From Desulfovibrio legallii (GTDB lineage Bacteria; Desulfobacterota; Desulfovibrionia; Desulfovibrionales; Desulfovibrionaceae), in the NCBI RefSeq assembly GCF_004309735.1, contig NZ_SIXC01000004.1:125796-189795 (forward strand): 64,000 nucleotides of DNA, written 5' to 3'. Shown here piece after piece: positions 33,138 through 50,121 of this stretch (its first letter is position 1; every line of letters begins with the position of its first letter). Under the pieces are notes generated by a model. That model saw nothing but the letters and a program-made list of their open reading frames with translations. It made no database searches and had not been told where the DNA came from. Position numbers and translations under genes: made by a program.

Positions 33138-33569
33138 TCAGCGCCGCATGACCAGTACCAGGCCGGCCAAAATGAGCAGCAGGCCCACGGCTCTGCGCCA
33201 GTCCAGCGGCATGGGGGTCAGGCCAAACCAGCCAAAATGGTCGATGACAGAGGCCATGAACAGGTTGCCGAGGATCATGGCCACGCCCGTGGCCAGAGCG
33301 CCGATGCGCGGCACGGCCAGTACCGTGCTGAAGACCATGCAGGCGCCCAACACCCCGCCCACCCACTGCCAGGCAGGGGCTTCGGTCAGGCGCAGAACGT
33401 GCCCGCGCCCCAGAACCAGACTCATCAGCCCCAAAAACAGGGCCCCTACCGTAAAGGAAATAAAGCTGCTTTCCAGGGTGCCCACGGCGCGGGCCAGGGC
33501 CGCGTTGATGGGGGCCTGCAGGGCCACCATGCAGCCGGCAAAGATCATCAGAGCGAGGGTCGGCAGCAT
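33138..33569 (-). CDS. YdcZ/DUF606-type small membrane transporter (DMT superfamily)
   Basis: 143 residues with five hydrophobic helices (starts LALMIFAGCMVALQAPINAAL; ends LLLILAGLVLVM). The motif QAPINAALARAVGTLESSFISF is characteristic of the YdcZ family. These act as half-size drug/metabolite transporters, often as pairs; here it is single. The ATG at 33569 has an AGGAGG 5-10 nt upstream that touches a repeat B copy, so any promoter must lie in or beyond that repeat. Confidence 0.85.
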   Translation of the reverse strand: MLPTLALMIFAGCMVALQAPINAALARAVGTLESSFISFTVGALFLGLMSLVLGRGHVLRLTEAPAWQWVGGVLGACMVFSTVLAVPRIGALATGVAMILGNLFMASVIDHFGWFGLTPMPLDWRRAVGLLLILAGLVLVMRR

Positions 33570-33578
33570 TGGGGCCTC

Positions 33579-33678
33579 CTAGAGCATTTAACACTTGAAA
33601 TGCTCGCTTACGGCAGGCAAAAGCCTGCCTTCTCGCATTTCGTGGCAAGGATTTTCAAGAAAATCCTTGCAGAGCAGT
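33579..33678 (-). repeat. Repeat B (MITE-like), copy 2, inverted
   Basis: Inverted relative to the other copies. It begins with TAGAGCATTTAAC and holds the same hairpins, but the last part is cut short after GCAGAGCAGTTAC and runs directly into repeat C. Confidence 0.85.
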
Positions 33679-33870
33679 TACCTTTGAGAACAGGTATTCG
33701 CAACGTTTACGGCACGCTCGTTTCGGCGCTTAAGCGCGCAAATGCATAGCGGTGCTGTCTCCATCCGCAGCATTCTGTGTTGCAACGGCTGAAGCTACGC
33801 TTGCGCCCCATGGTGGACATCTGCTTACGCAGCCGCCAGGGCATTGCAATGTTGCAGTGCCTGGCGGCTG
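33679..33870 (+). repeat. Repeat C, copy 4
   Basis: Family blocks: AGGTATTCGCAACGTTTACG, GGCACGCTCGTTTCGGCGCT, GCAACGGCTGAAGCTACGC and CGCCAGGGCATTGCAATG. It ends about 24 bp before the stop of the PfkB-type kinase gene on the other strand. Confidence 0.78.
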
Positions 33871-37156: not shown

Positions 37157-38110
37157 ATGTCGCAGAACAGCTTGCTCAACGTCAGCAATAACGAACTGGA
37201 AATCATTGAATTTCTTATTGACGAAAAGCAGCCGGACGGCAGCGCCTACAGCGGGCGCTACGGCATCAATGTGGCCAAGGTGCTGGAGATCATCCGCCTG
37301 CCCAGCATCACCAGTGTGCCCAGCAAGCACGACCCCTCGGTGCTGGGCACCTTCAATCTGCGGGGCAAGGTGCTGCCTCTGCTGGATCTGGCGGCCTGGC
37401 TGGGCAAGGAGATGTCCACGCGAGAAAACGCCAAGGTCATCGTCACAGAATTCAGCGGCGTGCAGGCGGCCTTCCTGGTGTCTTCGGTCACCAGCATCCA
37501 CCGCATGACCTGGGACCGCATTGAGCCGCCCAACCGCTATGTGCAGACGTATTCGCGCGACAGCATCACTGGCGTGCTGCGCATCCAGGACCGCGTACTG
37601 TTCATCCTGGATATGGAAAAAATTCTGGCCAATCTGGACAGCAGCCTGGACATGTCCAAGGTGGAGCTGGACAGCAGCCCGGTGGAAGGGGCCGCACAGT
37701 TCCACCTGCTGGTGGCGGACGACTCTAACTCCCTGCGGCACATTATTCGATCTTCACTGGAAAAATCCGGCTTTCAGGTCACGGCTGTGGGCAGCGGACG
37801 GGAGGCCTGGGAATTTTTGCTGAAAACCCAGGCCGAGGCGCAGGCCCAGGGCAAGGAACTCACCGACCTGGTGCACCTGGTGGTTTCAGACATCGAAATG
37901 CCTGAAATGGACGGCCACATGCTCACGGCCAAAATCAAGGAAGCGCCGGGCATGCACCACCTGCCCGTCATCCTGTTTTCTTCGCTCATTACCGAAGCGC
38001 TCTACGCCAAAGGCGTCAAAGTGGGGGCGGATAAGCAGGTTTCCAAACCCGACCTGCCGGGCCTGAGCACCATCATCCGCGAACTCATCGCCCAAAAGCT
38101 GCACAAATAG
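37157..38110 (+). CDS. cheV: CheV: CheW-receiver chemotaxis coupling protein
   Basis: 317 residues. An N-terminal CheW-like domain (about 15-165; YGINVAKVLEIIRLP, LGTFNLRGKVLPLLDLAAWL, ITGVLRIQDRVLFILDMEKIL) is joined to a receiver domain (about 183-315). The receiver has the acidic pair in VADDSNS, phospho-acceptor Asp in VVSDIEMPEMDGH and Lys in KQVSKPD. Such proteins link chemoreceptors to CheA and are tuned by phosphorylation. No che cluster surrounds it. The stop codon is the TAG at the very start of repeat B copy 3. Confidence 0.93.
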   Translation: MSQNSLLNVSNNELEIIEFLIDEKQPDGSAYSGRYGINVAKVLEIIRLPSITSVPSKHDPSVLGTFNLRGKVLPLLDLAAWLGKEMSTRENAKVIVTEFSGVQAAFLVSSVTSIHRMTWDRIEPPNRYVQTYSRDSITGVLRIQDRVLFILDMEKILANLDSSLDMSKVELDSSPVEGAAQFHLLVADDSNSLRHIIRSSLEKSGFQVTAVGSGREAWEFLLKTQAEAQAQGKELTDLVHLVVSDIEMPEMDGHMLTAKIKEAPGMHHLPVILFSSLITEALYAKGVKVGADKQVSKPDLPGLSTIIRELIAQKLHK

Positions 38111-38234
38111 CGCAGTTTACGAATGAAATGAGTTAATTGCTCTGCAAGGATTTTCTTGAAAATCCTTGCCACGAAATGCGAGAAGGCAGGCTTTTGCCTG
38201 CCGTAAGCGAGCATTTCAAGTGTTACATGCTCTA
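38108..38234 (+). repeat. Repeat B (MITE-like), copy 3
   Basis: Starts TAGCGCAGTTTA, so its TAG is the cheV stop codon, and ends TTACATGCTCTAGA. The four-hairpin layout is the same as copy 1, including the perfect 12-bp-arm stem. Confidence 0.88.
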
Positions 38235-38425
38235 GAGCAACGCACCGTTGCGAATAGGTATTCGCAAAGGGTAAGGCACGCTCGCTCCGGCGTTTCAGCG
38301 CGCAAATCAATAGCGATTGCTTGCATCCGCAGCATCCTGTGTCGCAACGCTGAAGCTGCGCTTGCGCCTCCACGGCGGGTGTCTGCTTACGCAACCGCCA
38401 GGGCATTGCAGCATTGCCATCCCTG
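38232..38425 (+). repeat. Repeat C, copy 5
   Basis: Starts with TAGAGCAACG, sharing the CTCTAG junction with repeat B, then a perfect hairpin TTGCGAATA-GG-TATTCGCAA (38248-38267). Family blocks GGCACGCTCGCTCCGGCG and CACGGCGGGTGTCTGC follow. Confidence 0.8.
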
Positions 38426-38467
38426 ACAGCGGCAAAAAGCCGTCGAAAGCCCATTTGAGAGCCCATT

Positions 38468-38503
38468 GCCCTGCACCGCCTTTTGCGGTGCAGGGCTTTT
38501 TTG
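38468..38503 (+). terminator. Rho-independent terminator upstream of the urea operon
   Basis: GCCCTGCACCGC pairs perfectly with GCGGTGCAGGGC (12-bp arms, 5-nt loop) and is followed by TTTTTT. It should stop cheV transcription before the urt promoter. Confidence 0.92.
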
Positions 38504-38510
38504 TGCGGTA

Positions 38511-38534
38511 GTATAAAACAAAAATGTTTTATAC
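38511..38534. promoter_or_regulatory. Upstream activator palindrome 1 for the urt-ure operon
   Basis: GTATAAAACA-AAAA-TGTTTTATAC, a perfect inverted repeat with 10-bp arms and a 4-nt spacer, centred about 127 bp before the expected transcription start. Good position and shape for an enhancer-binding protein site. Confidence 0.7.
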
Positions 38535-38545
38535 TCGGGGCAAAA

Positions 38546-38559
38546 AAACAAAAATGTTT
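38546..38559. promoter_or_regulatory. Upstream activator palindrome 2 for the urt-ure operon
   Basis: AAACA-AAAA-TGTTT, the same core as site 1, with its centre exactly 30 bp away (about three helical turns). Same face of the helix is therefore expected for both sites. Confidence 0.65.
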
Positions 38560-38623
38560 CGGTAAAGCGGGATACTTTAAAAAAATATTATTACATATCG
38601 CACTGATATAAAAAAATCCAAGC

Positions 38624-38639
38624 TGGCACATCGCTTGCT
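38624..38639 (+). promoter_or_regulatory. Sigma-54 promoter (-24/-12) of urtA
   Basis: TGGCAC-N5-TTGCT matches the RpoN consensus TGGCAC-N5-TTGCW fully. The urtA start codon is 71 bp after it, leaving a 5' leader of about 60 nt. Confidence 0.85.
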
Positions 38640-38710
38640 ACCCAAAGGCAACAACGCACCGCGTCCCATGGGGGCCGGGCGCGTACACCCCGTGTTCCCA
38701 GGAGGAAGCG

Positions 38711-39991
38711 ATGTTGAAGAAAATGTTGGCACTGCTGGCGCTGGCCCTGACCCTTGGCGGCGTTACCGGCGCACGCGCGGCAGACACCATCAAGGTGGGC
38801 ATTCTGCATTCATTGTCCGGCACCATGGCCATCAGCGAAACTACGCTCAAGGACGCCATGCTCATGCTCATTGACGAGCAGAACAAAAAAGGCGGCCTGT
38901 TGGGCAAAAAGCTGGAGCCTGTGGTGGTGGACCCCGCCTCCAACTGGCCCTTGTTTGCGGAAAAAGCCCGCGAACTGCTGAGCAAAGACAAGGTAGCCGT
39001 GGTCTTTGGCTGCTGGACCTCGGTTTCGCGCAAGTCTGTGCTGCCCGTGTTTGAGGAGCTCAACGGCCTGCTCTTCTATCCCGTGCAGTATGAAGGCGAG
39101 GAGTCTTCACGCAACGTCATCTACACCGGGGCCGCGCCCAACCAGCAGGCCATCCCCGCCGTGGACTATCTGATGAACGACCTGGGCGTGCAGCGCTGGG
39201 TGCTGGCCGGCACGGACTATGTCTTTCCCCGCACGGCCAACAAGATTCTGGAGGCCTACCTCACCGCCAAGGGCGTGAAAAAGGAAGATATCCTTATCAA
39301 CTATACGCCCTTTGGCCATTCCGACTGGCAGTCCATTGTGGCGGAGATCAAAAAATTCGGCAGCGCCGGCAAAAAGACCGCCGTGGTTTCCACCCTCAAC
39401 GGCGACGCCAACGTGCCCTTCTACAAAGAGCTGGCCAACCAGGGCGTTTCTGCGGCGGATATTCCGGTCATGGCCTTTTCTGTGGGCGAGGAAGAGCTTT
39501 CGGGCATCGACACCAAGCCCTTGGTGGGCCACCTGGCGGCCTGGAACTACTTCATGAGTGTGGACACGCCCGCCAACAAGGCCTTTATCAAAAAATGGCA
39601 CGCCTACATCAAGAATAACAAGCGCGTGACCAATGACCCCATGGAAGCCCACTACATCGGCTTCAACCTCTGGGTCAAAGCCGTGGAAAAAGCTAAAAGC
39701 ACGGATGTGAACAAGGTGCTCAAAGCCATTGTGGGGCTGGAAACCCCCAACCTCACCGGCGGCATGGCCAAGGTGCTGCCCAACCACCACATTACCAAGC
39801 CCGTGCTGATCGGCGAAATCCAGGCCGACGGTCAGTTCCAGGTGGTCTGGGAGACGCCCAAAGTGGTGCCCGGCGACGCCTGGTCCGATTACCTGCCCGG
39901 CTCCAAAGACCTGGAAGCGGACTGGACCGACCCCATTAACTGCGGCAACTACAACGTAAAAACAAAACAGTGCGGCGGCGCTGCCAAGTAA
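38711..39991 (+). CDS. urtA: Urea ABC transporter, periplasmic urea-binding protein
   Basis: 426 residues, preceded by AGGAGG. A Sec signal peptide (MLKKMLALLALALTLGGVTG, cleavage near ARA-AD) leads to a type I periplasmic binding fold: IKVGILHSLSGTMAISE, DPASNWPLFAEKARELL, VFGCWTSVSRKSVLPVFEEL, and LFYPVQYEGEESSRNVIYTG. These segments are characteristic of UrtA and the related AmiC/FmdD-type binders. It should capture urea and hand it to UrtBC. It is the first gene of a twelve-gene block and sits behind a sigma-54 promoter; a stem-loop follows it. Confidence 0.96.
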   Translation: MLKKMLALLALALTLGGVTGARAADTIKVGILHSLSGTMAISETTLKDAMLMLIDEQNKKGGLLGKKLEPVVVDPASNWPLFAEKARELLSKDKVAVVFGCWTSVSRKSVLPVFEELNGLLFYPVQYEGEESSRNVIYTGAAPNQQAIPAVDYLMNDLGVQRWVLAGTDYVFPRTANKILEAYLTAKGVKKEDILINYTPFGHSDWQSIVAEIKKFGSAGKKTAVVSTLNGDANVPFYKELANQGVSAADIPVMAFSVGEEELSGIDTKPLVGHLAAWNYFMSVDTPANKAFIKKWHAYIKNNKRVTNDPMEAHYIGFNLWVKAVEKAKSTDVNKVLKAIVGLETPNLTGGMAKVLPNHHITKPVLIGEIQADGQFQVVWETPKVVPGDAWSDYLPGSKDLEADWTDPINCGNYNVKTKQCGGAAK

Positions 39992-40064: not shown

Positions 40065-40127
40065 CTCCCCCACCGGCTGTCCCCTCCGGCTGTCATGCCG
40101 GAGAGCCCCCCGGACAAGGATATGTCT

Positions 40128-41813
40128 ATGCGCGCGGTGTTATCCCTTCTTTTTTGCATCCTGTGCGGCTTGCCCTTGGCAATGCCCACTGCCGCTCCGG
40201 CGGCGGGCGCTGCCTCCGGAGACGCGGCGCTGACTCCCGCCACGACTCCGGAGCCCAGCCCGACCCAGGAGCAGGCCGGGCTGTCCACAGCCCTGCCTGC
40301 GGAACTGCTCCGGGCTTTGGTCAGCCCCAAGGTTATGGACAGGGACAAGGCCCTGGACCTGTTGGACACCCTGCCCGTCGACCTTCAGGACAGGCTGCTG
40401 CGCGCCCTGCTCCACGGCCGTCTGTTGGCGGATCAGGAAACCCGGACTCTCTATGTGGCGGCCGCTGATGGTGCCGCCCGGCCACTGCTTGCGCCGGAAG
40501 CGTCGGCCCGGCCCGCTGAAGGACTGCGCCGCGTGGGCACCAGCAACCGTCAGCGCCAGCGCATCACCGATGTTCTGAACGCCCGCGCCCTCACTGCGCC
40601 CAACGTGCTGCGCCGCCGCGCCGCGGCCGCCGCACTGATGGAAAGCGCCGTACCGCCGCTCAAAGCCCCGGCCCTGCGCGCCTTGCTGGATGTGGAAAAG
40701 GACGCTCCCACCCGCGCCAGCCTGGAAGCCGCCCTGGCCCTGCACACGGCGGCGGACAAAAGCGCCACCCCTGCAGACCTGCTGCAGGCCGTAGCCGCGC
40801 TCGACGCCAACGGTGCGCCCACGGCCTGTAACGCCCTGAACGCCCTTGCCGACAGTGCTGACCCGGCGGTGGCCAAGGCGGCGCAGGACGCCCTGTACAG
40901 ACAGCGTGTGGCCGCCCAGTGGGGCGGGTTTTTTGAAATGTTCTTTTTCGGCCTCAGCCTGGGATCCATTCTGGTGCTGGCGGCCACTGGTCTGGCCATC
41001 ACCTTTGGCGTCATGGGCGTCATCAACATGGCCCACGGCGAATTTATCATGCTGGGGGCCTACACGGCCTGGGGCGTGCAGCAAATGCTGCCCGGCCGCC
41101 CCGGCCTGGCGCTGCTGCTGGCCGTGCCCGCCGCCCTGCTGGTCAGCGGCGGCATGGGCGTGCTGCTGGAGCGCACGGTCATCCGCTTTCTCTACGGCCG
41201 GCCGCTGGAAACCCTGCTGGCCACCTTTGGCGTGAGTCTGGTGCTGCAGCAGGCCGTGCGCAGCGTGTTTTCGCCCCTCAACCGGGCCGTGCAGACCCCG
41301 GACTTCATGAGTGGCGTGTGGCAGATCACTCCGCACTTTGCCCTGACCTGCAACCGCGTCTACATCATGCTGTTCTGCCTGGGAGTCTTTGCCTGCATCC
41401 ACGCGGCCATGCACCGTACCCGACTGGGGCTGGAGGTGCGCGCCGTATCGCAAAACCGGCCCATAGCCCGCTGCATGGGCGTGCGCGCCGCGCGGGTGGA
41501 CGCCCTGACCTTCGGCCTGGGTTCCGGCGTGGCCGGCATGGCCGGCGTGGCTCTGAGCCAGGTCACCAACGTGGGGCCCAACCTGGGCCAGGGCTACATT
41601 ATTGATTCCTTCATGGTGGTGGTCTTCGGCGGGGTGGGCAACCTCTGGGGCACGCTCACGGGCGGCCTGGCCCTGGGCGTGGCCAACAAGTTTCTGGAGC
41701 CCGTAAGCGGGGCCATGCTCTCCAAGATCATCATTCTGGTCTGTCTTATCCTGTTTATCCAGAAGCGGCCGCGCGGGCTCTTTCCGCAGAAGGGCCGGGC
41801 GGTGGAGGCATAA
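40128..41813 (+). CDS. urtB: Urea ABC transporter permease UrtB
   Basis: 561 residues from the ATG at 40128, 7 nt after AAGGA; in-frame ATGs at 40122 and 40095 are less well placed. A signal sequence (AVLSLLFCILCGLPLAMPT) and about 240 residues of extracytoplasmic helical sequence precede the LivH-like membrane domain. That domain begins near 275 (FGLSLGSILVLAATGLAITF) and contains GVMGVINMAHGEFIMLGAYT. The N-terminal extension is normal for UrtB. The C-terminus has the conserved VVVFGGVGNLWGTLTGGLAL. It pairs with UrtC to form the urea channel. Confidence 0.95.
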   Translation: MRAVLSLLFCILCGLPLAMPTAAPAAGAASGDAALTPATTPEPSPTQEQAGLSTALPAELLRALVSPKVMDRDKALDLLDTLPVDLQDRLLRALLHGRLLADQETRTLYVAAADGAARPLLAPEASARPAEGLRRVGTSNRQRQRITDVLNARALTAPNVLRRRAAAAALMESAVPPLKAPALRALLDVEKDAPTRASLEAALALHTAADKSATPADLLQAVAALDANGAPTACNALNALADSADPAVAKAAQDALYRQRVAAQWGGFFEMFFFGLSLGSILVLAATGLAITFGVMGVINMAHGEFIMLGAYTAWGVQQMLPGRPGLALLLAVPAALLVSGGMGVLLERTVIRFLYGRPLETLLATFGVSLVLQQAVRSVFSPLNRAVQTPDFMSGVWQITPHFALTCNRVYIMLFCLGVFACIHAAMHRTRLGLEVRAVSQNRPIARCMGVRAARVDALTFGLGSGVAGMAGVALSQVTNVGPNLGQGYIIDSFMVVVFGGVGNLWGTLTGGLALGVANKFLEPVSGAMLSKIIILVCLILFIQKRPRGLFPQKGRAVEA

Positions 41814-41814
41814 T

Positions 41815-42999
41815 ATGCGCACGCTACTCTCCACGGCGCCGGTCCTTCGCGCCGGGCAGGATCCTCTGCCGCACGAAGGGCTCTTCAACCGCTCCACCCG
41901 CGTTTTTCTGCTGCTTACGGCACTGTTCGCCCTGGCGGTCTGCGGCGGCAGCCTGCTGCCCCAGGCCAGCGCCCTGCATGTGCCGGGCTATCTGGTCGCC
42001 TTGCTGGGCAAGTACCTGACCTACGCCCTGCTGGCCCTTTCCGTGGATCTGATCTGGGGCTACATGGGGGTGCTCAGCCTGGGGCACGGGGCCTTTTTTG
42101 CCTTGGGCGGCTATGCCTTCGGCATGTACCTCATGCGCCAGATCGGCGCGCGCGGCGTGTACGGCAATCCGGACCTGCCGGATTTCATGGTCTTTCTTAA
42201 CTGGAAGGAACTGCCCTGGTTCTGGACCGGCAGCGAGCATTTCTGGGCGGCGGCTCTGCTGGTGGCGCTGCTGCCGGGCGTGACGGCCTATGTGTTCGGC
42301 CGACTGGCTTTCGGCTCGCGGGTGTCGGGGGTCTATTTTTCCATCATGAGTCAGGCCATGACCTACGCCCTTATGCTGGCCTTTTTCCGCAACGAAATGG
42401 GCTTCGGCGGCAACAACGGGCTTACGGACTTTAAGTCCTTGCTGGGGTTTGACATCCAGACCGATGGCATGCGCACGGCGCTCTTTGCCTGTTCGGCGCT
42501 GGCCCTCATGGCGGGCTATTGTCTGTGCCGGGCCGTGACGGCCTCGCGCCTGGGGCGGGTCTGCGTGGCCATCCGCGACGCCGAAGACCGCACGCGCTTT
42601 CTGGGCTACAGGGTGGAGCGCTTTCAGGTGGCGGTGTTCACCCTTTCCGCTGTGCTGGCGGGCGTGGGCGGCGCACTCTATGTGCCGCAGGTGGGCATTA
42701 TCAACCCCGGCGAGTTTTCACCCCTCAATTCCATTGAAGTGGTGGTCTGGGTGGCCCTGGGAGGCCGCGGCAGGCTTTACGGCGCGGTATTGGGGGCCAT
42801 TGCGGTCAATGCCTTCAAAACCTGGTTCACGGGCGTGCTGCCGGAGGTCTGGCTATTTGCCTTGGGCGGGCTGTTTGTGCTGGTCACCGTGTTCCTGCCC
42901 CAGGGGCTGGCGGGACTGCCTGCGCAACTGCGCGCATGGCTGCGTCGTCAAAGGCCCTCTGCGCCTTCCGAGGCCGCAACGCAAGGAGGCGCGGCATGA
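41815..42999 (+). CDS. urtC: Urea ABC transporter permease UrtC
   Basis: 394 residues, starting 2 nt after the urtB stop. LivM-like permease with about ten hydrophobic helices. The family loop DLIWGYMGVLSLGHGAFFAL is followed by the conserved FGGNNGLTDFKSLLGFDI of UrtC, the EAA-like RVCVAIRDAEDRTRFLGYRV, and GALYVPQVGIINPGEFSPLN. It forms the membrane pore with UrtB. The 3' end overlaps urtD by 4 bp. Confidence 0.95.
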   Translation: MRTLLSTAPVLRAGQDPLPHEGLFNRSTRVFLLLTALFALAVCGGSLLPQASALHVPGYLVALLGKYLTYALLALSVDLIWGYMGVLSLGHGAFFALGGYAFGMYLMRQIGARGVYGNPDLPDFMVFLNWKELPWFWTGSEHFWAAALLVALLPGVTAYVFGRLAFGSRVSGVYFSIMSQAMTYALMLAFFRNEMGFGGNNGLTDFKSLLGFDIQTDGMRTALFACSALALMAGYCLCRAVTASRLGRVCVAIRDAEDRTRFLGYRVERFQVAVFTLSAVLAGVGGALYVPQVGIINPGEFSPLNSIEVVVWVALGGRGRLYGAVLGAIAVNAFKTWFTGVLPEVWLFALGGLFVLVTVFLPQGLAGLPAQLRAWLRRQRPSAPSEAATQGGAA

Positions 43000-43886
43000 A
43001 ATCCTCTCGCGACTATCTGCAGGGCCGTAGCCTGGAGGAAGTGGAAGCAGCGGCCAAAGCCTACGAGGCCAGCCACACGCCCTTTGACAAGCGTCCGCTC
43101 CGGGAGCGCGTGCAGCCTCCCCGCGCCATGCTGGAAAAGCCGCGCATCGCCCTCTATCTGGAACGCATCGGCGTGAGTTTTGACGGCTTCAAGGCGCTCA
43201 ATGACCTGACCTTCTATGTGGACGAAGGGGAGCTGCGCTGCGTCATCGGCCCCAACGGCGCGGGCAAGACCACCATGATGGACGTCATCACGGGCAAGAC
43301 CCGCCCCGACGCGGGCACAGCCTGGTTTGGCCGTGACTGCAACCTGCTGCAGATGGACGAGGTAGCCATTGCCCAGGCGGGCATCGGCCGCAAATTCCAG
43401 AAGCCTTCGGTCTTTGCGGCTTTGACGGTGGCCCAGAATCTGGAGCTGGCCCTGGCGGGCCGTAAAACCGTGTGGGGCGCTTTTCGCGCGCGGCTCAACG
43501 GCGAACAGCGCGACAGCCTGGAGGAAGTGCTCACCCGTATTCGCCTCGCGGAGCAGGCCCGCATGCCCGCGGGCAGCCTTTCCCACGGGCAGAAGCAGTG
43601 GTTGGAAATCGGCATGCTGCTTATGCAGAAGCCCCGCCTGCTGCTGCTGGACGAACCTGTGGCGGGCATGACCCCGGAGGAAATGGATCGCACCATTGAG
43701 CTGTTGCACGAGCTGGAAGGTAAGCAAAGCATCATGGTGGTGGAACACGATATGGAATTTGTTCGGGCCATTGCCCACAAGGTCACGGTGCTGCATCAGG
43801 GCAGCGTGCTGGCCGAGGGCAGCATGGAGGCCATGCAGAACCATCCGGCCGTGGTGGAGGCCTACCTGGGCGAACCCTTGGAGTAA
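42996..43886 (+). CDS. urtD: Urea ABC transporter ATPase UrtD
   Basis: 296 residues from the ATG at 42996 (GGAGG upstream). A UrtD-type N-terminal extension of about 45 residues is followed by an ABC ATPase: Walker A GPNGAGKTTM, the LivG-like AGIGRKFQKPSVFAALTV, signature LSHGQKQWLEIGMLL, and Walker B LLLLDEPVAGMTPEEM. It hydrolyses ATP at the inner face of the UrtBC channel together with UrtE. The extension has no known motif. Confidence 0.95.
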   Translation: MKSSRDYLQGRSLEEVEAAAKAYEASHTPFDKRPLRERVQPPRAMLEKPRIALYLERIGVSFDGFKALNDLTFYVDEGELRCVIGPNGAGKTTMMDVITGKTRPDAGTAWFGRDCNLLQMDEVAIAQAGIGRKFQKPSVFAALTVAQNLELALAGRKTVWGAFRARLNGEQRDSLEEVLTRIRLAEQARMPAGSLSHGQKQWLEIGMLLMQKPRLLLLDEPVAGMTPEEMDRTIELLHELEGKQSIMVVEHDMEFVRAIAHKVTVLHQGSVLAEGSMEAMQNHPAVVEAYLGEPLE

Positions 43887-43891
43887 ACGTC

Positions 43892-44587
43892 ATGCTGCGG
43901 ATAGAAAATCTCAATCAGTATTACGGATCCAGCCACATCCTGCGGGATGTGGAGCTGGAAGTGGCCGCCGGTTCCTGCGCCTGCCTCATGGGCCGCAACG
44001 GTGTGGGCAAAACCACGCTGCTGCAGTGCGTCATGGGCGTGCTGCCCGCGCGCTCCGGCCATATTTTCCTGGAAGGGAAGGACTTGCTCCCGCTGCCTGT
44101 GGAGCGTCGTGCGGCCCTGGGCATAGGTTATGTGCCCCAGGGCCGCCAAATCTTCCCCTTGCTTACCGTTCGGGAAAACATGGAGCTTTCCCTGCCCATG
44201 CGCCGGGACGGCCTGCGCAGCATTCCGTCCTTCATCTTCGACTTTTTCCCGGTGCTGGGCGAAATGCTCTCCCGTCGGGGCGGCGACCTTTCCGGCGGGC
44301 AGCAACAGCAGCTGGCCATTGCCCGCGCCCTGGTTCTGGAACCGCGCCTGCTCATCCTGGACGAACCCACCGAAGGCATCCAGCCCAATATCGTGCGGGA
44401 TATCGCCGTCGCCATCCGGCGGCTGAACGCGGAGCTGGGCCTTACCGTCCTGCTGGTGGAACAAAAAGTGCCCTTTGCCCGGCGTATGGCCGATACCTAT
44501 ATGATCATGGACCGGGGGCACATTATGGCTCAGGGCCCCATGCAGGGCCTGGACGCGGCCACGGTCAAAGCCTTTTTGAGCGTCTGA
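43892..44587 (+). CDS. urtE: Urea ABC transporter ATPase UrtE
   Basis: 231 residues, 5 bp after urtD. LivF-like ABC ATPase: Walker A GRNGVGKTTLLQ, RAALGIGYVPQGRQIFPLLT, signature LSGGQQQQLAIARAL, Walker B LLILDEPTEGIQPNIV, and the switch His replaced by Gln in LLVEQKVPFARR, as is normal for LivF. It completes the five-component urea importer and is followed 9 bp later by the first urease accessory gene. Confidence 0.95.
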   Translation: MLRIENLNQYYGSSHILRDVELEVAAGSCACLMGRNGVGKTTLLQCVMGVLPARSGHIFLEGKDLLPLPVERRAALGIGYVPQGRQIFPLLTVRENMELSLPMRRDGLRSIPSFIFDFFPVLGEMLSRRGGDLSGGQQQQLAIARALVLEPRLLILDEPTEGIQPNIVRDIAVAIRRLNAELGLTVLLVEQKVPFARRMADTYMIMDRGHIMAQGPMQGLDAATVKAFLSV

Positions 44588-44596
44588 GGCCCCGCT

Positions 44597-45649
44597 GTGC
44601 TGCCCCCTTCCCCCCTTGCCCCTTCCCCCTGCTTTGCTGCGCCTGCGGCGCACGACGACGCCGGGCACGGGTTCGGGCCGGACCGCCGCTGGAGCGCCGG
44701 GCTGGACCTTATTTTTGAAGCGCGGCTGGCGCGCAGCGTGCTGACCAGGATGTCTTTTCACGGTCCCCTGCGCGTGCAGCGCCCCTTTTACCCGGAAGGG
44801 CCTTTGCCGGGCGCGCCCCTGGCCGCAGCTGCCTTGGCCGAGCCCTGCCACTGCTGTTTGCTGCATCCGCCCGGCGGCCTGGTAAGCGGTGACGATCTGC
44901 GCATAACCGCCTTGGTGGAGCCCCAGGCCCATGTGCTGCTTACCACGCCCTCGGCCGCCAAGTGTTATGCCGCGGACGCCTGCCAGGTGCCCCAGGCCCA
45001 GCATGTGGCGTTGCGGGTGCGCGGCGGCCTGCTGGAGTGGCTGCCGCGTGAAACCATCGTCTATGACGGCGCGCGGGCCGAGCTGACAACGGCCATTGAC
45101 CTGGATGCCACGGCCTGTTGCCTGGGCTGGGAGGCCCTTTGTCTGGGCCGTGCGGCGGCTGGAGAACGCTTTACGCGCGGCCGTCTGCGTCAGCGATTGA
45201 GCCTTTGGCGCGCGGGCCGCCCCCTGCTGCACGAGACGTTGGACCTCACGGCCGGGGATGAGCTGCAGCACGGGCCTTTCGGCCTGCAGGGAGAAACCGT
45301 GTGTGCCACGCTGTTTGCCGTGGGCCGGGCAGAGGCGCAAGGCGGCCCCGGCCCGGACCAGGCGGCCCTGGAAGCGGTCTGCGCCCAGTTGCAGGAAGGG
45401 CTGGCCCCGGAGAGCCCCTGTACGCCCCTGATCTCCGGTGGCCGTCCCGGCCCCGGCCCGGTTCGCGCGCTGTCCCCCGCGTCGGGGCGGGCCGGGGCCA
45501 CCCTGCGCCAGGGCGTGCTGTTGTTGCGCTATCTGGGGCCGGATATGGAAGCGGCCCGGCGGCTGTTTTTTCAGGTCTGGGCCTTGCTGCGTCCTGTACT
45601 GGCGGGCCGGGCGCCCTGCCCGCCGCGCGTCTGGGCCGGAGCTTTTTGA
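44597..45649 (+). CDS. ureD: Urease accessory protein UreD
   Basis: 350 residues from a GTG 9 nt after the urtE stop; no strong ribosome site, so translation may be coupled to urtE. UreD/UreH family pattern: [55 protein letters not shown] and [14 protein letters not shown]. It works with UreF and UreG to insert nickel into the urease apoprotein. Its first 35 residues and the Gly/Pro/Ala-rich segment 270-310 are less conserved than the rest. Confidence 0.92.
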
Positions 45650-45692: not shown

Positions 45693-45995
45693 ATGGAACT
45701 GCTGCCCAGAGAAAAGGACAAACTTTTGCTGTTCACGGCCGGGCTGCTGGCGGAGCGGCGCAAGGCGCGCGGGCTTCGGCTCAACTATCCGGAAGCCGTG
45801 GCCTACATCAGCCTGGCGGTATTGGAAGGCGCGCGGGATGGGCGGAGCGTGGCCGAGCTCATGGGTTCGTGCCGCAATCTGCTCAGCCGTGAGGACGTCA
45901 TGGAGGGCGTGCCGGAGATGGTCCGCGAGGTACAGGTGGAGGCCACCTTTCCCGACGGCACTAAGCTGGTTACGGTGCACGATCCCATTTTGTAG
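45693..45995 (+). CDS. ureA: Urease gamma subunit
   Basis: 100 residues, the classical length for a separate gamma subunit ([20 protein letters not shown] at the start, [39 protein letters not shown] at the end). AAGGAGG lies 6-12 nt before the ATG at 45693. With UreB and UreC it forms the (alpha beta gamma)3 enzyme that hydrolyses urea to ammonia and carbamate. It is separate from the beta subunit, unlike the fused gamma-beta form of Helicobacter. Confidence 0.96.
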
Positions 45996-46010: not shown

Positions 46011-46349
46011 ATGATCCCCGGCGAATACATGCTGGCGGCGGGCGAAGTGGTCTGCAACGCCGCGTCGGAAGGGCGCGAAGTGGTGCTGGAAGTAGCCAAT
46101 ACGGGCGACAGGCCCATTCAGGTGGGTTCGCACTACCATTTTTATGAGGTCAATCCCGCGCTGGTCTTTGAGCGGGAAAAGGCGCGCGGCATGCGGCTGG
46201 ATATTCCGGCCGGCACGGCCGTGCGACTGGAGCCGGGGCAGAAGCGCGAGGTGCGGCTTATTCCCTATGGGGGGCTGCGGCGCGTCTACGGCTTTCGGGG
46301 GCAGGTGATGGGGCCGCTGGACGTTGTGGTCGGGGAGGAAGAAGCATGA
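46011..46349 (+). CDS. ureB: Urease beta subunit
   Basis: 112 residues; AAGGAGAGG precedes the ATG. Family features: [39 protein letters not shown]-type core (seen as [20 protein letters not shown]), [20 protein letters not shown] and RFEPGQ-like [11 protein letters not shown] full-length independent beta subunit. The stop overlaps the start of ureC by 4 bp. Confidence 0.95.
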
Positions 46350-48067
46350 TCCGCATACCAAGAAGCCAGTACGTCGAGCTGTACGGCCCCACCACGGGCG
46401 ACCGCATCCGCCTGGCGGATACGGACCTCTGGATTGAGGTGGAGCGCGACCACACCGTGCCCGGCGAAGAAGTCTGCTTTGGCGGGGGCAAGGTCATCCG
46501 CGACGGCATGGGGCAGAGCCAGCGCGGCAATGCCGAAGGCGCCATGGACACGGTCATCACCAACGCCGTTATTCTGGATGCGGCGCTCGGCGTCATCAAG
46601 GCCGATCTGGGCATTCGGGACGGGCGCATAGCCTGCATGGGCAAGGCCGGCAACCCGGACGTGCAGCCGGACGTGGACGTGATCATCGGCCCCGGCACGG
46701 AGATCATTGCCGGCGAAGGCTGCCTGCTCACAGCCGGGGGCATGGATTCCCACGTCCACTTCATCTGCCCGCAGCAGGTGGAGGAGGCGCTGGCCAGCGG
46801 CATTACCACCATGCTGGGCGGCGGTACGGGCCCGGCCACAGGCACCAACGCCACCACCTGCTCGCCCGGCCCCTGGCATCTGGAGCGCATGCTGGCCGCC
46901 ACGGACCTGCTGCCCATGAACTTCGGCTTTCTGGGCAAGGGCAACGCCGCCCTGCCCGACGCCCTGCGCGAACAGCTGGAGGCAGGAGCCTGCGGCCTTA
47001 AGCTGCACGAGGATTGGGGCAGCACCCCGGCGGCCATCGACAACTGCCTGTCTGTGGCCGACGAATACGACGTGCAGGTGGCCATCCACACGGATACGCT
47101 CAACGAGGCCGGTTTTGTGGAAGATACTCTGGCCGCCTTCCGGGGGCGAACCATTCACACCTACCACACGGAGGGCGCGGGCGGCGGACACGCGCCGGAC
47201 ATTCTGCGGGCCTGCTCTCTGCCCAACGTGCTGCCTTCGTCCACCAATCCCACCAGACCCTATACGGTCAACACCGTGGACGAGCATCTGGATATGCTCA
47301 TGGTCTGCCACCACCTCAACCCTTCGCTGCCGGAGGACGCGGCCTTTGCCGATTCGCGCATCCGGCGCGAAACTATTGCCGCGGAAGATATTCTGCAGGA
47401 CATGGGCGTCATTTCCATGATTTCTTCCGATTCCCAGGCCATGGGGCGGGTGGGCGAGGTGATCATCCGCACCTGGCAGACAGCCCACAAGATGAAAGTG
47501 CAGCGTGGCCCCCTGCCGGAAGATAAAGACCACGGCAACGACAATTTCCGTGTGCGGCGCTATCTGGCCAAATACACCTGCAACCCGGCCATTACCCACG
47601 GCCTGTCCCATGCCGTGGGCGCTGTGGCGCCGGGCCTGCTGGCTGACCTGGTGCTCTGGAAACCGGCGTTTTTCGGGGTCAAGCCTTTGCTGGTGCTCAA
47701 GGGCGGGCAGATAGCCTGCGCCCCCATGGGCGACGCCAACGCCTCCATTCCCACGCCCCAGCCCATGCACAGCCGCCCCATGTTCGGAGCCCTGGGCCAG
47801 GCGGCGGCAGCGGCCAGCCTGAGCTTTGTTTCCCGCGCGTTTATGGAAAACGGCGGGGAAGGCCGCCTGCGCGAACTGGGCCTGCTGCGCGGGCTTTCGG
47901 CCTGCCGGGGCACGCGCGCCCTGCGCAAGAGCGACATGCTGCTGAACAGCGCCACGCCCGCCCTTTCCGTCAACCCGCAAACCTATGAGGTGCGCGCCGA
48001 CGGCGAAATCCTCAGCTGCCCGCCGGCGGAGGTGCTGCCCATGGCGCAGCGCTATTTTCTGTTTTAG
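46346..48067 (+). CDS. ureC: Urease alpha (catalytic) subunit
   Basis: 573 residues. Nickel and catalytic residues are intact. The HxH pair is in [14 protein letters not shown], and the carbamylated Lys in [13 protein letters not shown]. His ligands lie in [11 protein letters not shown] and [15 protein letters not shown], the mobile flap Cys and catalytic His in [20 protein letters not shown], and the Asp ligand in [15 protein letters not shown]. It hydrolyses urea in the cytosol. The start overlaps ureB by 4 bp. The following 180 bp before ureE hold no gene, a break in the otherwise compact operon. Confidence 0.97.
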
Positions 48068-48247
48068 GTGGCGAAGAGCAAAGTCCGCTCCTTCGCGGCC
48101 TTGCACTGGATTGGCGGCCCCAGGCGACGTGACAAGGTCGTTTCCCCTCCGGCCAGGGTTCGCCCGGCGCACGCCCTGAGAAGAGAAGCGCTTTTTGAAG
48201 GATGGCGCGCGGGGGAAAGCAGTTCCAACTTCACAGGAGGAGGTTCC

Positions 48248-48688
48248 ATGCTGGAATTTACGGAAAATCTGGGCAACCGCGACGATCTGCAGCCCACGGA
48301 ACGGCTGACGTTGGCCTATGAGCAGCGCGGCAAGTGCCGTCAACGGCTGCGGTTGGACAGCGGGCAGGAAGCGGGCCTGTTTTTGCAACGGGGGCAGGTG
48401 CTGCGGGAAGGGGACGTGCTCCGCGCGGGGGAAACCCTGGCCGTGGTGCACAATGCTCAGGAGCCGGTAGTGACGGCCGTGGCCCCCAACTGGGAGACGC
48501 TGGCGCGGGCCTGCTATCATTTGGGCAACCGCCATGCGCCTCTGCAGCTGGGGCACAAGTGGCTGCGCTTTACGCCGGACCATGTGCTGGAAGAACTGGC
48601 GGAAAGCCTGGGCCTGCGCCTGCGGCGGGAAAACGCGGCCTTCGTGCCCGAAGGGGGCGCGTATGACGGCCCGCACAGCCATGCCTGA
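48248..48688 (+). CDS. ureE: Urease accessory protein UreE (nickel chaperone)
   Basis: 146 residues from the ATG at 48248, preceded by AGGAGGAGG. The two UreE domains are visible: an N-terminal peptide-binding part (RLTLAYEQRGKCRQRLRLDSG, LFLQRGQVLREGDVLRA) and the metal-binding part with CYHLGNRHAPLQL. The C-terminal tail is short (GPHSHA) and holds only two His, so it lacks the long His-rich tail of some homologues. It delivers nickel to UreG. It overlaps ureF by 26 bp. Confidence 0.93.
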   Translation: MLEFTENLGNRDDLQPTERLTLAYEQRGKCRQRLRLDSGQEAGLFLQRGQVLREGDVLRAGETLAVVHNAQEPVVTAVAPNWETLARACYHLGNRHAPLQLGHKWLRFTPDHVLEELAESLGLRLRRENAAFVPEGGAYDGPHSHA

Positions 48689-49466
48689 AGCCTCCGCGCC
48701 CGGATCTGCACTGGGGGGCGCGGTCACGGGGGTCTGGTCCGGGCCGGACCCGGCCCTGCTGCCCCTGCTCTATCTGGCCGGGCAGACTTTGCCCGTGGGC
48801 GGTTTTGCCTGGTCCCAGGGGCTGGAGGCTGCCGTGGAACAGGGCCTGGCGGGCGACGCTGCGGGCTTGCGGCGTTGGCTTGCGGGCGTGCTGCACTACG
48901 GCCTGGCCCGCAACGATCTGCCCTTGCTGCTGCGCCTGCACCGGGCGGCAATGACGCAAGACGCGACGGGCCTGCGCTTTTGGAACGATCGTGTGCTGGC
49001 AAGCCGCGAGAGTGCGGAACTGTGGCAGGAGGAAGTGCAGATGGGCCGGGCTTTGCGGCGGTTGCTCACGGATACGGGGCTGCTGGCTGCCGCGGGGCCC
49101 CTGCCGGGTATGGATTTGCCGGATGACGCGGGCTATACGGCCTGTTTCGCGGCGGCGGCGGCTTTGCTGCAGACGCGCGCCGCAAAGGCGGCCCCTACGC
49201 CGGGGCAGGCGGCGTCCTTTGGGCTGAACGCGGCCTGCGCCTATGCCTGGAGCTGGCTGCAGAACCAGACCGCCGTGGCCTGCAAGACCGTGCCCCTGGG
49301 CCAGACCGCCGCCCAGAAGCTGTTGCTGGAATTTTTATCCCTGCTGCCGCAGGAAGCGGCACAGGCCGCCGCGCTGGACGATACGGCGGTGGGGGCGTCC
49401 CTGCCGGGGCTGGCCCTGTGCAGCGCCGCGCACGAACGGCAGTATTCACGTTTGTTCAGGAGTTGA
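48663..49466 (+). CDS. ureF: Urease accessory protein UreF
   Basis: 267 residues from the ATG at 48663, inside the end of ureE; an ATG at 48681 is an alternative. All-helical UreF pattern: [62 protein letters not shown], and C-terminal [23 protein letters not shown]. The first 30 residues are extra compared with most homologues. It bridges UreD and UreG on the apo-urease. Confidence 0.92.
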
Positions 49467-49470
49467 AACC

Positions 49471-50121
49471 ATGACTGCAAGACCCTGCCTGCGTGTGGGC
49501 GTGGGCGGCCCGGTGGGTTCGGGCAAGACCGCCCTCCTCCGCCATCTCTGCCTGCGCATGCGCAAAGACTACAATATGGCCGTGGTCACCAATGATATTT
49601 ATACCCGCGAGGACGCGGAATTTCTGCTGCGGCACAACGCCCTGGAGGCCGACCGCATCCTGGGCGTGGAAACGGGCGGCTGCCCGCACACGGCCATACG
49701 GGAAGACGCCTCCATGAACATCCAGGCCATTGAGGCGCTGCAGCGCCGCCATCCCGGCCTGGAACTGGTGCTGGTGGAAAGCGGCGGGGACAATCTTTCC
49801 GCCACGTTCAGCCCGGAACTGGCGGACCTGACCCTCTATGTCATCGACGTGAGCGGCGGCGATAAAATTCCCCGCAAGGGCGGGCCGGGCATTACCAAAT
49901 CCGACCTGCTCATCATCAACAAGGTGGATCTGGCCCCCATGGTCCACGCTTCGCTGGACGTTATGGAGCGGGATACGCGCAGAATGCGCGGGCAGCGGCC
50001 CTATGTGCTCACGGAGCTGCTTTCCGGCGCGGGTGTGGAGGCGGTGGTGGCGTTTATTGTGCGCGAAGGGATGCTGCGGCCATTGATGCGGGAGCAGCAG
50101 GCGGGCTGTTGCCGTAGCTGA
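49471..50121 (+). CDS. ureG: Urease accessory GTPase UreG
   Basis: 216 residues; TTCAGGAGT lies just upstream. SIMIBI GTPase: P-loop [14 protein letters not shown], the nickel-binding Cys-Pro-His motif in [48 protein letters not shown] and NKVDLAP. GTP-dependent nickel delivery to urease. It is the last gene of the block; the 98 bp after it, before the converging sahH, hold a GC-rich hairpin. Confidence 0.96.

Follow-up and report, generated by a model that had tools for sequence, protein, structure and literature searches.

Upstream of the urea transport and urease genes of Desulfovibrio legallii lies a sigma-54-type promoter with two palindromes, and the locus raises the question of which activator reads them. 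The window, the whole stretch of DNA analysed, comprises 64,000 nucleotides (G000:C4:125796-189795) of a 2.68-Mb genome (G000). Behind the promoter, urtABCDE and ureD, A, C, E, F and G were called, and ureB obtained no separate call (Table 1). Judging from sequence comparison, segment 38510-38639 is probably an enhancer pair of a sigma-54 promoter, serving a DVU1949-type, NifA-like, non-NtrC activator of nitrogen scavenging.

Table 1. Positions of the control elements and genes of the urt-ure locus in the window.
Feature	Position	Strand	Remark
Strong intrinsic terminator-like hairpin with T tract	38468..38496	+	3' of upstream CheW/receiver gene (37157-38110)
Distal putative activator site AGTATAAAACA-AAAA-TGTTTTATACT	38510..38535	.	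core ACA starts 106 bp before -24 TGG
Proximal putative activator site AAACA-AAAA-TGTTT	38546..38559	.	core ACA starts 76 bp before -24 TGG
Sigma-54 promoter TGGCAC-N5-TTGCT (-24/-12), TGGCACATCGCTTGCT	38624..38639	+	exact match to consensus spacing
Ribosome-binding site AGGAGG of urtA	38700..38705	+	read in sequence
urtA, urea ABC substrate-binding protein	38711..39991	+	TIGR03407, 577 bits, above cut-off
urtB	40095..41813	+	TIGR03409, above cut-off
urtC	41815..42999	+	TIGR03408, above cut-off
urtD, true start probably internal	42936..43886	+	TIGR03411, above cut-off
urtE	43892..44587	+	TIGR03410, above cut-off
ureD	44597..45649	+	Pfam PF01774
ureA (gamma subunit)	45693..45995	+	Pfam PF00547
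ureC (alpha subunit)	46346..48067	+	TIGR01792, above cut-off
ureE	48068..48688	+	Pfam PF05194/PF02814
ureF	48732..49466	+	Pfam PF01730
ureG	49471..50121	+	Pfam PF02492 (CobW/HypB/UreG); UreG from operon position

The earlier note had read a full-match -24/-12 element 71 bp before urtA, and this was confirmed. The motif TGGCAC-N5-TTGCT occurred once in the window against an expected 0.09. At least one copy was also found in 8 of 100 shuffles, so the element by itself is only suggestive. It has the GG at -24 and the GC at -12 at the fixed spacing of sigma-54 promoters, and the best place within 320 bp matched all eight scored bases of TGG.A......TTGC in each of 14 urt upstream regions. A scan of 38100-38760 for sigma-70-like promoters gave none, against an expected 0.6. 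No IHF site was found upstream of the G000 urtA gene; a match at -38 was present in just two of the 14 urt upstream sequences, which leaves IHF bending unproven. A dispersed repeat, recognized by eye from translations sharing LEMLAYGRQKPAFSHFVARIFKKILAEQL or its reverse-strand reading, occurs at about 33550-33720, at 38110-38260 and in L143 near 8700. The copy at 38110-38260 lies directly upstream of the terminator preceding the urt promoter, and there are others elsewhere in the genome. Titles and abstract openings of open-licence PMC articles contained no report of a Desulfovibrio urt promoter; one may exist elsewhere.

Inspection of the upstream region located the palindrome centers at 38522.5 and 38552.5, exactly the 30-bp separation described earlier. 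A sigma-54 promoter is expected to initiate transcription some 12 bp downstream of the GC in its -12 element. Under this assumption, the centers lie about 127 and 97 bp before the start, in line with the previous estimate. The distal palindrome was likewise present, with arms of 11 bp, one pair longer than first given. The pattern AAACAN4TGTTT occurred twice in the window (0.04 expected), a count reached in none of 100 shuffles.

Searching G000 for further copies upstream of RpoN promoters, a check proposed in the earlier note, was partly successful. AAACA-N4-TGTTT was found at five distinct places, the two in the window and three others, one of which precedes a perfect -24/-12 element. This is AAACAATTTTGTTT, 229-231 bp before the element of a TRAP-eutB operon whose EutB belongs to PF06751. 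The remaining two were set aside. AAACAATGCTGTTT at C2:205829 lies in a feoB-like upstream region (by eye) with no sigma-54 element seen and no evident link, and the palindrome at C2:301633 runs across the start predicted for a kor-like operon (by eye), so that it lies on the wrong promoter side. A gene for a PrpR-type activator is found near the latter operon.

The shorter core, ACA-N4-TGT, was counted 11 times in the 260-bp stretches before 92 sigma-54-like matches of G000, including both window sites and one shared site counted twice, while ACA-TGT spacings of 2, 3, 5 and 6 gave 1-2 each. These 92 were taken from 102 matches; those left out include four in the window and one near a contig end. 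The arrangement TGT-N11-ACA was likewise frequent (10 in the same 92 stretches). Groups of TGT/ACA half-sites are described for other D. vulgaris activators in PMC4641369. Two divergent sigma-54-like promoters at G000:C2:100302-100574 (L189, L247), which serve a methyl-accepting chemotaxis protein and a large cache-like protein (by eye), have one ACAATTTTGT site in common, hinting at nitrogen-linked chemotaxis.

UrtA is present in 14 of 79 genus genomes. The urt upstream region was readable in 13 of them (in G011, urtA is at a contig edge and was left out), and a named relative, L064, one of 80 loci found, was added as the 14th sequence. The proximal ACA-N4-TGT was perfect in 11 of the 13 genus loci, 75-78 bp before the TGG; it has one mismatch in G088 and is missing in G026. 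A distal core stands at -105 or -106 in nine further genus genomes, among them G068, which keeps the 30-bp spacing with one core mismatch. Eight of the 13 loci combine two perfect cores with a spacing of 29-30 bp. In G010 the distance to the second site is 41 bp, about one helical turn more, and L064 (Nc350) carries two related dyads, ACTTAAATGT, with one-mismatch cores 51 bp apart, about two turns more. The arrangement in G026 and G027 differs from the phased pair.

Between G000 and ten relatives, the 66-bp spacer was 29-48% identical. The proximal core was 80-100% identical in nine of the ten, and that of G068 is one base out of register. The sites were held at fixed distances while the spacer diverged. 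The conserved consensus is ACAAAAWTGTTTTA, a core ACA-N4-TGT whose flanks are AT-rich, one of them carrying TTTTA. Thus, the palindrome core of the earlier note is conserved, but the long palindrome is not, its outer GTAT...ATAC arms being found in G000 alone. The kept arrangement, phasing and sigma-54 element in the relatives support the enhancer-pair layout that had been proposed: two like dyads facing the same side of the helix, some 80-200 bp upstream and at a conserved spacing, as is expected of tandem activator sites. UrtA of named gammaproteobacteria (Competibacter and others) is 84-86% identical to the G000 protein, compared with 83% for that of one named Desulfovibrio isolate; this equal or greater closeness suggests horizontal transfer of the urt genes.

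G000 encodes 16 strong sigma-54 activators, with two additional weak matches. Among these, the most likely activator of the urt pair is, by gene distribution and linkage, the L026-type protein, which is encoded on a contig other than that of the window (G000:C15, L144:8395-9990; 531 aa). It consists of a GAF domain, an AAA+ domain with GAFTGA and a Fis HTH, the composition of a one-component activator. Its gene was detected in 15 of 79 genus genomes (E 1e-90), including 11 of the 14 with urt. In G061, G062, G063, G072 and G084 it is the immediate upstream neighbor of urtA, and the phased pair lies in the interval between the two genes. The G013 genes are separated only by an inserted block, which by eye looks formate-dehydrogenase-like. 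The G089 gene precedes amtB, and the pair found there is 29 bp apart with an imperfect -24/-12 element, TGGCATGATGCATGCA, matching 8 of 11 bases. A second amtB copy in G089 has two cores 111 bp apart, as at the amtB promoters of the paralogue discussed below. In G085 the gene adjoins a TRAP-eutB operon. Single palindromes were found at eut in G000 (at -229, an unusual distance) and in G085 (at -178). Neither G000 nor its close relative G068 has the L026-type gene linked to urt. The proximal site is retained in G010 and G027, where no L026-type gene was detected at E 1e-90; it can therefore probably be read by another protein. The sigma-54 activator gene that the earlier note anticipated has a candidate in G000, linked to urtA in sister genomes. 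Its supposed lineage specificity did not hold, as the clade of the protein takes in ior-linked activators across the order.

The phased pair was then sought in the whole genus with the pattern ACAAWWWTGT-N19/20-ACAN4TGT. Matches were obtained in 10 of 79 genomes, and the reversed-pattern control gave one. All ten belong to the 15 genomes with the L026-type gene, and none to the 64 without it (Fisher p 2e-9, uncorrected for phylogeny). The genomes are related; hence Fisher values overstate the association and are not independent tests. A perfect pair was missing in five of the 15: G068 and G088 have one mismatch each, the urt upstream region of G011 is unreadable, and G066 and G085 are without a pair. 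The pairs occupy 13 distinct places, namely eight urt promoters, one amtB gene, one gamma-glutamyltranspeptidase gene and three solute-binding-protein genes (the last two kinds by eye). At the five non-urt pairs, the -24/-12 element matched 8 of 11 bases in G089 and G070, 9 in G061 and G084, and 10 in G062; the opposite-strand match was 6 to 8 in four of the five places.

A search for ACAAN3TGT followed by a sigma-54 element gave 46 matches, compared with three for the control. A gap of 65 or 66, two of the 31 allowed values, was observed in 16 of the 46, and 15 of these 16 came from genomes with the L026-type gene. Gaps were calculated by hand, and downstream genes were viewed for 11 matches in addition to the urt ones. 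One match with this gap, on the minus strand of G063, has no evident nitrogen gene, and its site is common to a divergent promoter. By eye, the genes behind the matches include a branched-chain-type transporter and a polar amino-acid transporter accompanied by two agmatinase-like genes. The latter combination was seen behind the motif in G061, G062 and G063 (L190, L191, L188). The agmatinase-like operon also holds a gene recalling urea-carboxylase-associated proteins (by eye), for which the piece scanned gave no Pfam match; the operon possibly allows the use of guanidino compounds, supplying urea to the urease.

A second protein has to be weighed at this point. L017, another NifA-like GAF activator, is encoded beside amtB (G000:C5:23769-25385, L143), and the pair could be real but read by L017 as a general nitrogen activator that uses all ACA-N4-TGT sites. 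Relatives of L017 occur in 67 of 79 genus genomes; of the genomes with urt, G011 alone, which is 63% complete, has none. AmtB was recognized just downstream of the L017-type gene in 21 of 30 loci read, and ACA-N4-TGT lies between the two genes in 19 of these 21. In 15 further amtB loci, the 600 bp before the gene contained the core in 9 of 13 loci from genomes with the paralogue and in one of two from genomes without it. L017 may use a similar core at amtB, and it would account for the proximal sites of G010 and G027. Since amtB upstream regions carry ACA-N4-TGT as well, the specificities of the L026-type protein and L017 may overlap. We nevertheless consider this explanation unlikely. L017 is found in most genomes that have no phased pair at all, and its gene was not found beside urt. 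The amtB sites differ in their flanks (TCNACA...TGTA), and paired ones are mostly about 40 to 119 bp apart rather than 29-30 bp. The pair tracks the L026-type gene instead, and does so within G089 too, where both promoter types occur; for this reason L017 was demoted from first candidate for the urt pair. Several amtB upstream regions have a -24/-12 element ending in GTGC. The G026 urt promoter (L008) carries other repeated dyads, AAAACGTAGTTTT and GAAACGTGGTTTT, 51 bp apart, and the recognition helix of the G026 L017 is changed too, in this one case only. Among plasmid records, the closest to one of the activators came from Nitratidesulfovibrio (44%).

The palindromes might instead be operators of a regulator that does not act through sigma-54, either a repressor or, given the nickel requirement of urease, a nickel regulator of the NikR kind. 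Many repressors typically have perfect dyads as their sites, and at the distal site the GTAT...ATAC ends bear a superficial resemblance to NikR-like operators. These ends are unconserved, however, and the distances to the predicted start, about 97 and 127 bp, suit an enhancer. Pairs of this kind also stand before amtB, before transporter genes and, by eye, before gamma-glutamyltranspeptidase; the common theme of these genes is nitrogen and not nickel. An operator function is accordingly quite improbable. The consensus site of NtrC is of the TGCACC-N5-GGTGCA type, and the earlier note was right that the palindrome departs from it: the best half-site match in G000 within 140 bp of the TGG was 6 of 10 bases, and the best among the 14 urt upstream sequences 7 of 10. 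The window contains no exact TGCACC-N5-GGTGCA site that would place the locus in an NtrC regulon. NtrC-type two-component control through the hairpin is hardly credible and was discarded for want of a site with the right spacing, for although G000 has receiver-domain sigma-54 activators, NtrC controls urea genes in several Proteobacteria and the stem does hold a superficially NtrC-like TGCACC-N9-GGTGCA, these half-sites are separated by 9 bp instead of 5 and form part of a terminator-like hairpin that has a T tract.

With the enhancer pair and the L026-type protein as the preferred reading, we infer the following course of activation, in which binding, the nitrogen signal, sigma-54 dependence and looping are all predicted. 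Under nitrogen shortage, the one-component GAF-AAA+-Fis protein would use its Fis-type HTH to bind the two sites. The bound dimers, about three helical turns apart, would oligomerize on one face of the helix. Looping of the DNA would then allow the activator to remodel RNA polymerase-sigma-54 at TGGCAC-N5-TTGCT. The remodeled polymerase would switch on urtABCDE and the ure genes behind.

The wider family of the L026-type protein was traced across the order, where 53 of 81 sampled genomes matched it at E 1e-75, seven of the 53 belonging to the genus. In 15 of 17 order-level loci read, all outside the genus, iorA-iorB precede the activator gene. Neither IorA nor IorB was found beside the L026-type gene in G000 or in 13 other genus loci (by eye). 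In a midpoint-rooted tree, 14 genus and 14 ior-linked activators (of 15 ior-linked loci, L373 was left out) formed one clade with a support of 1.0, which stands apart from the amtB-linked paralogue and from NifA-like proteins.

The same dyad appears before some of the ior operons. ACA-N4-TGT was the commonest of 26 dyads there, with 11 sites in 8 of 17 genomes. The shuffle mean was 1.2 genomes, and none of 1000 shuffles reached as many; the upstream stretch scanned was picked after a first look. The runner-up, ACA-N6-TGT, had six sites, and a perfect ACA-N4-TGT core is missing before 9 of the 17 operons. Five of the eight core-bearing genomes (G040, G045, G049, G057, G109) belong to one genus and the other three to three genera, so the support comes from four genera. 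This single-genus skew and the contrast within G089 act in opposite directions, and our weighing of the readings was left unchanged.

The closest published counterpart is DVU1949 of D. vulgaris Hildenborough, for which Kazakov et al. 2015 (PMC4641369) predicted a nitrogen regulon of nine operons. According to that paper, its gene shares a transcript with a hypothetical gene and also, in four genomes, with iorAB; the predicted targets concern nitrogen metabolism and transport and include DVU1231-DVU1233, and the word "urea" is absent from the main text (PMC4641369). By this published description, the L026-type protein resembles DVU1949 in being a one-component sigma-54 activator with order-wide relatives behind iorA-iorB. 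Unlike DVU1949, the genus gene lies by urtA, amtB or eut, or elsewhere, and in the loci read not by ior. The L026-type protein appears to represent, in this genus, the ior-linked family that matches the description of DVU1949.

We propose more broadly that, in Desulfovibrio-type bacteria, a one-component NifA-like GAF activator reading phased ACA-N4-TGT pairs fills the nitrogen-scavenging role of NtrC, and that its gene moves between target operons (urtA, amtB, eut) whose promoters keep the pairs afterwards. We regard this generalization as evenly balanced between right and wrong. Scavenging would here span urea, ammonium, amino acids, amidino compounds and ethanolamine. The proposal yields a predicted activator, site and target list where scans before these genes gave no NtrC-like site. 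It ties urea use to one candidate protein, and it gives a concrete motif to a regulator family otherwise familiar from comparative prediction in D. vulgaris.

Comparison with the classical systems places the locus further. NifA binds upstream sites of the form TGT-N10-ACA. The L026-type protein resembles NifA (TIGR01817) in its GAF-AAA+-Fis composition, and this is its best NCBIfam match, but 418 bits fall below the cut-off of 528.85. TGT-N10-ACA is absent from 13 of 14 urt upstream sequences, including that of G000, and the one copy, in G084, lies outside the conserved sites; identity with NifA was rejected on both counts. The candidate targets also differ, being nitrogen scavenging rather than nitrogenase. 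With the NtrC-controlled urea and urease promoters of Proteobacteria, the urt locus has in common that a sigma-54 promoter with activator sites upstream of it precedes urea genes. In alpha- and beta-Proteobacteria, ure genes are described as being under sigma-54 control (PMC12316311). The urt locus departs from the NtrC systems in its predicted one-component GAF activator without a receiver domain and in a different site. Overall, it probably represents a known kind of system, a nitrogen activator of the DVU1949 type, to which the present comparison adds urt as a target and a likely definition of the site.
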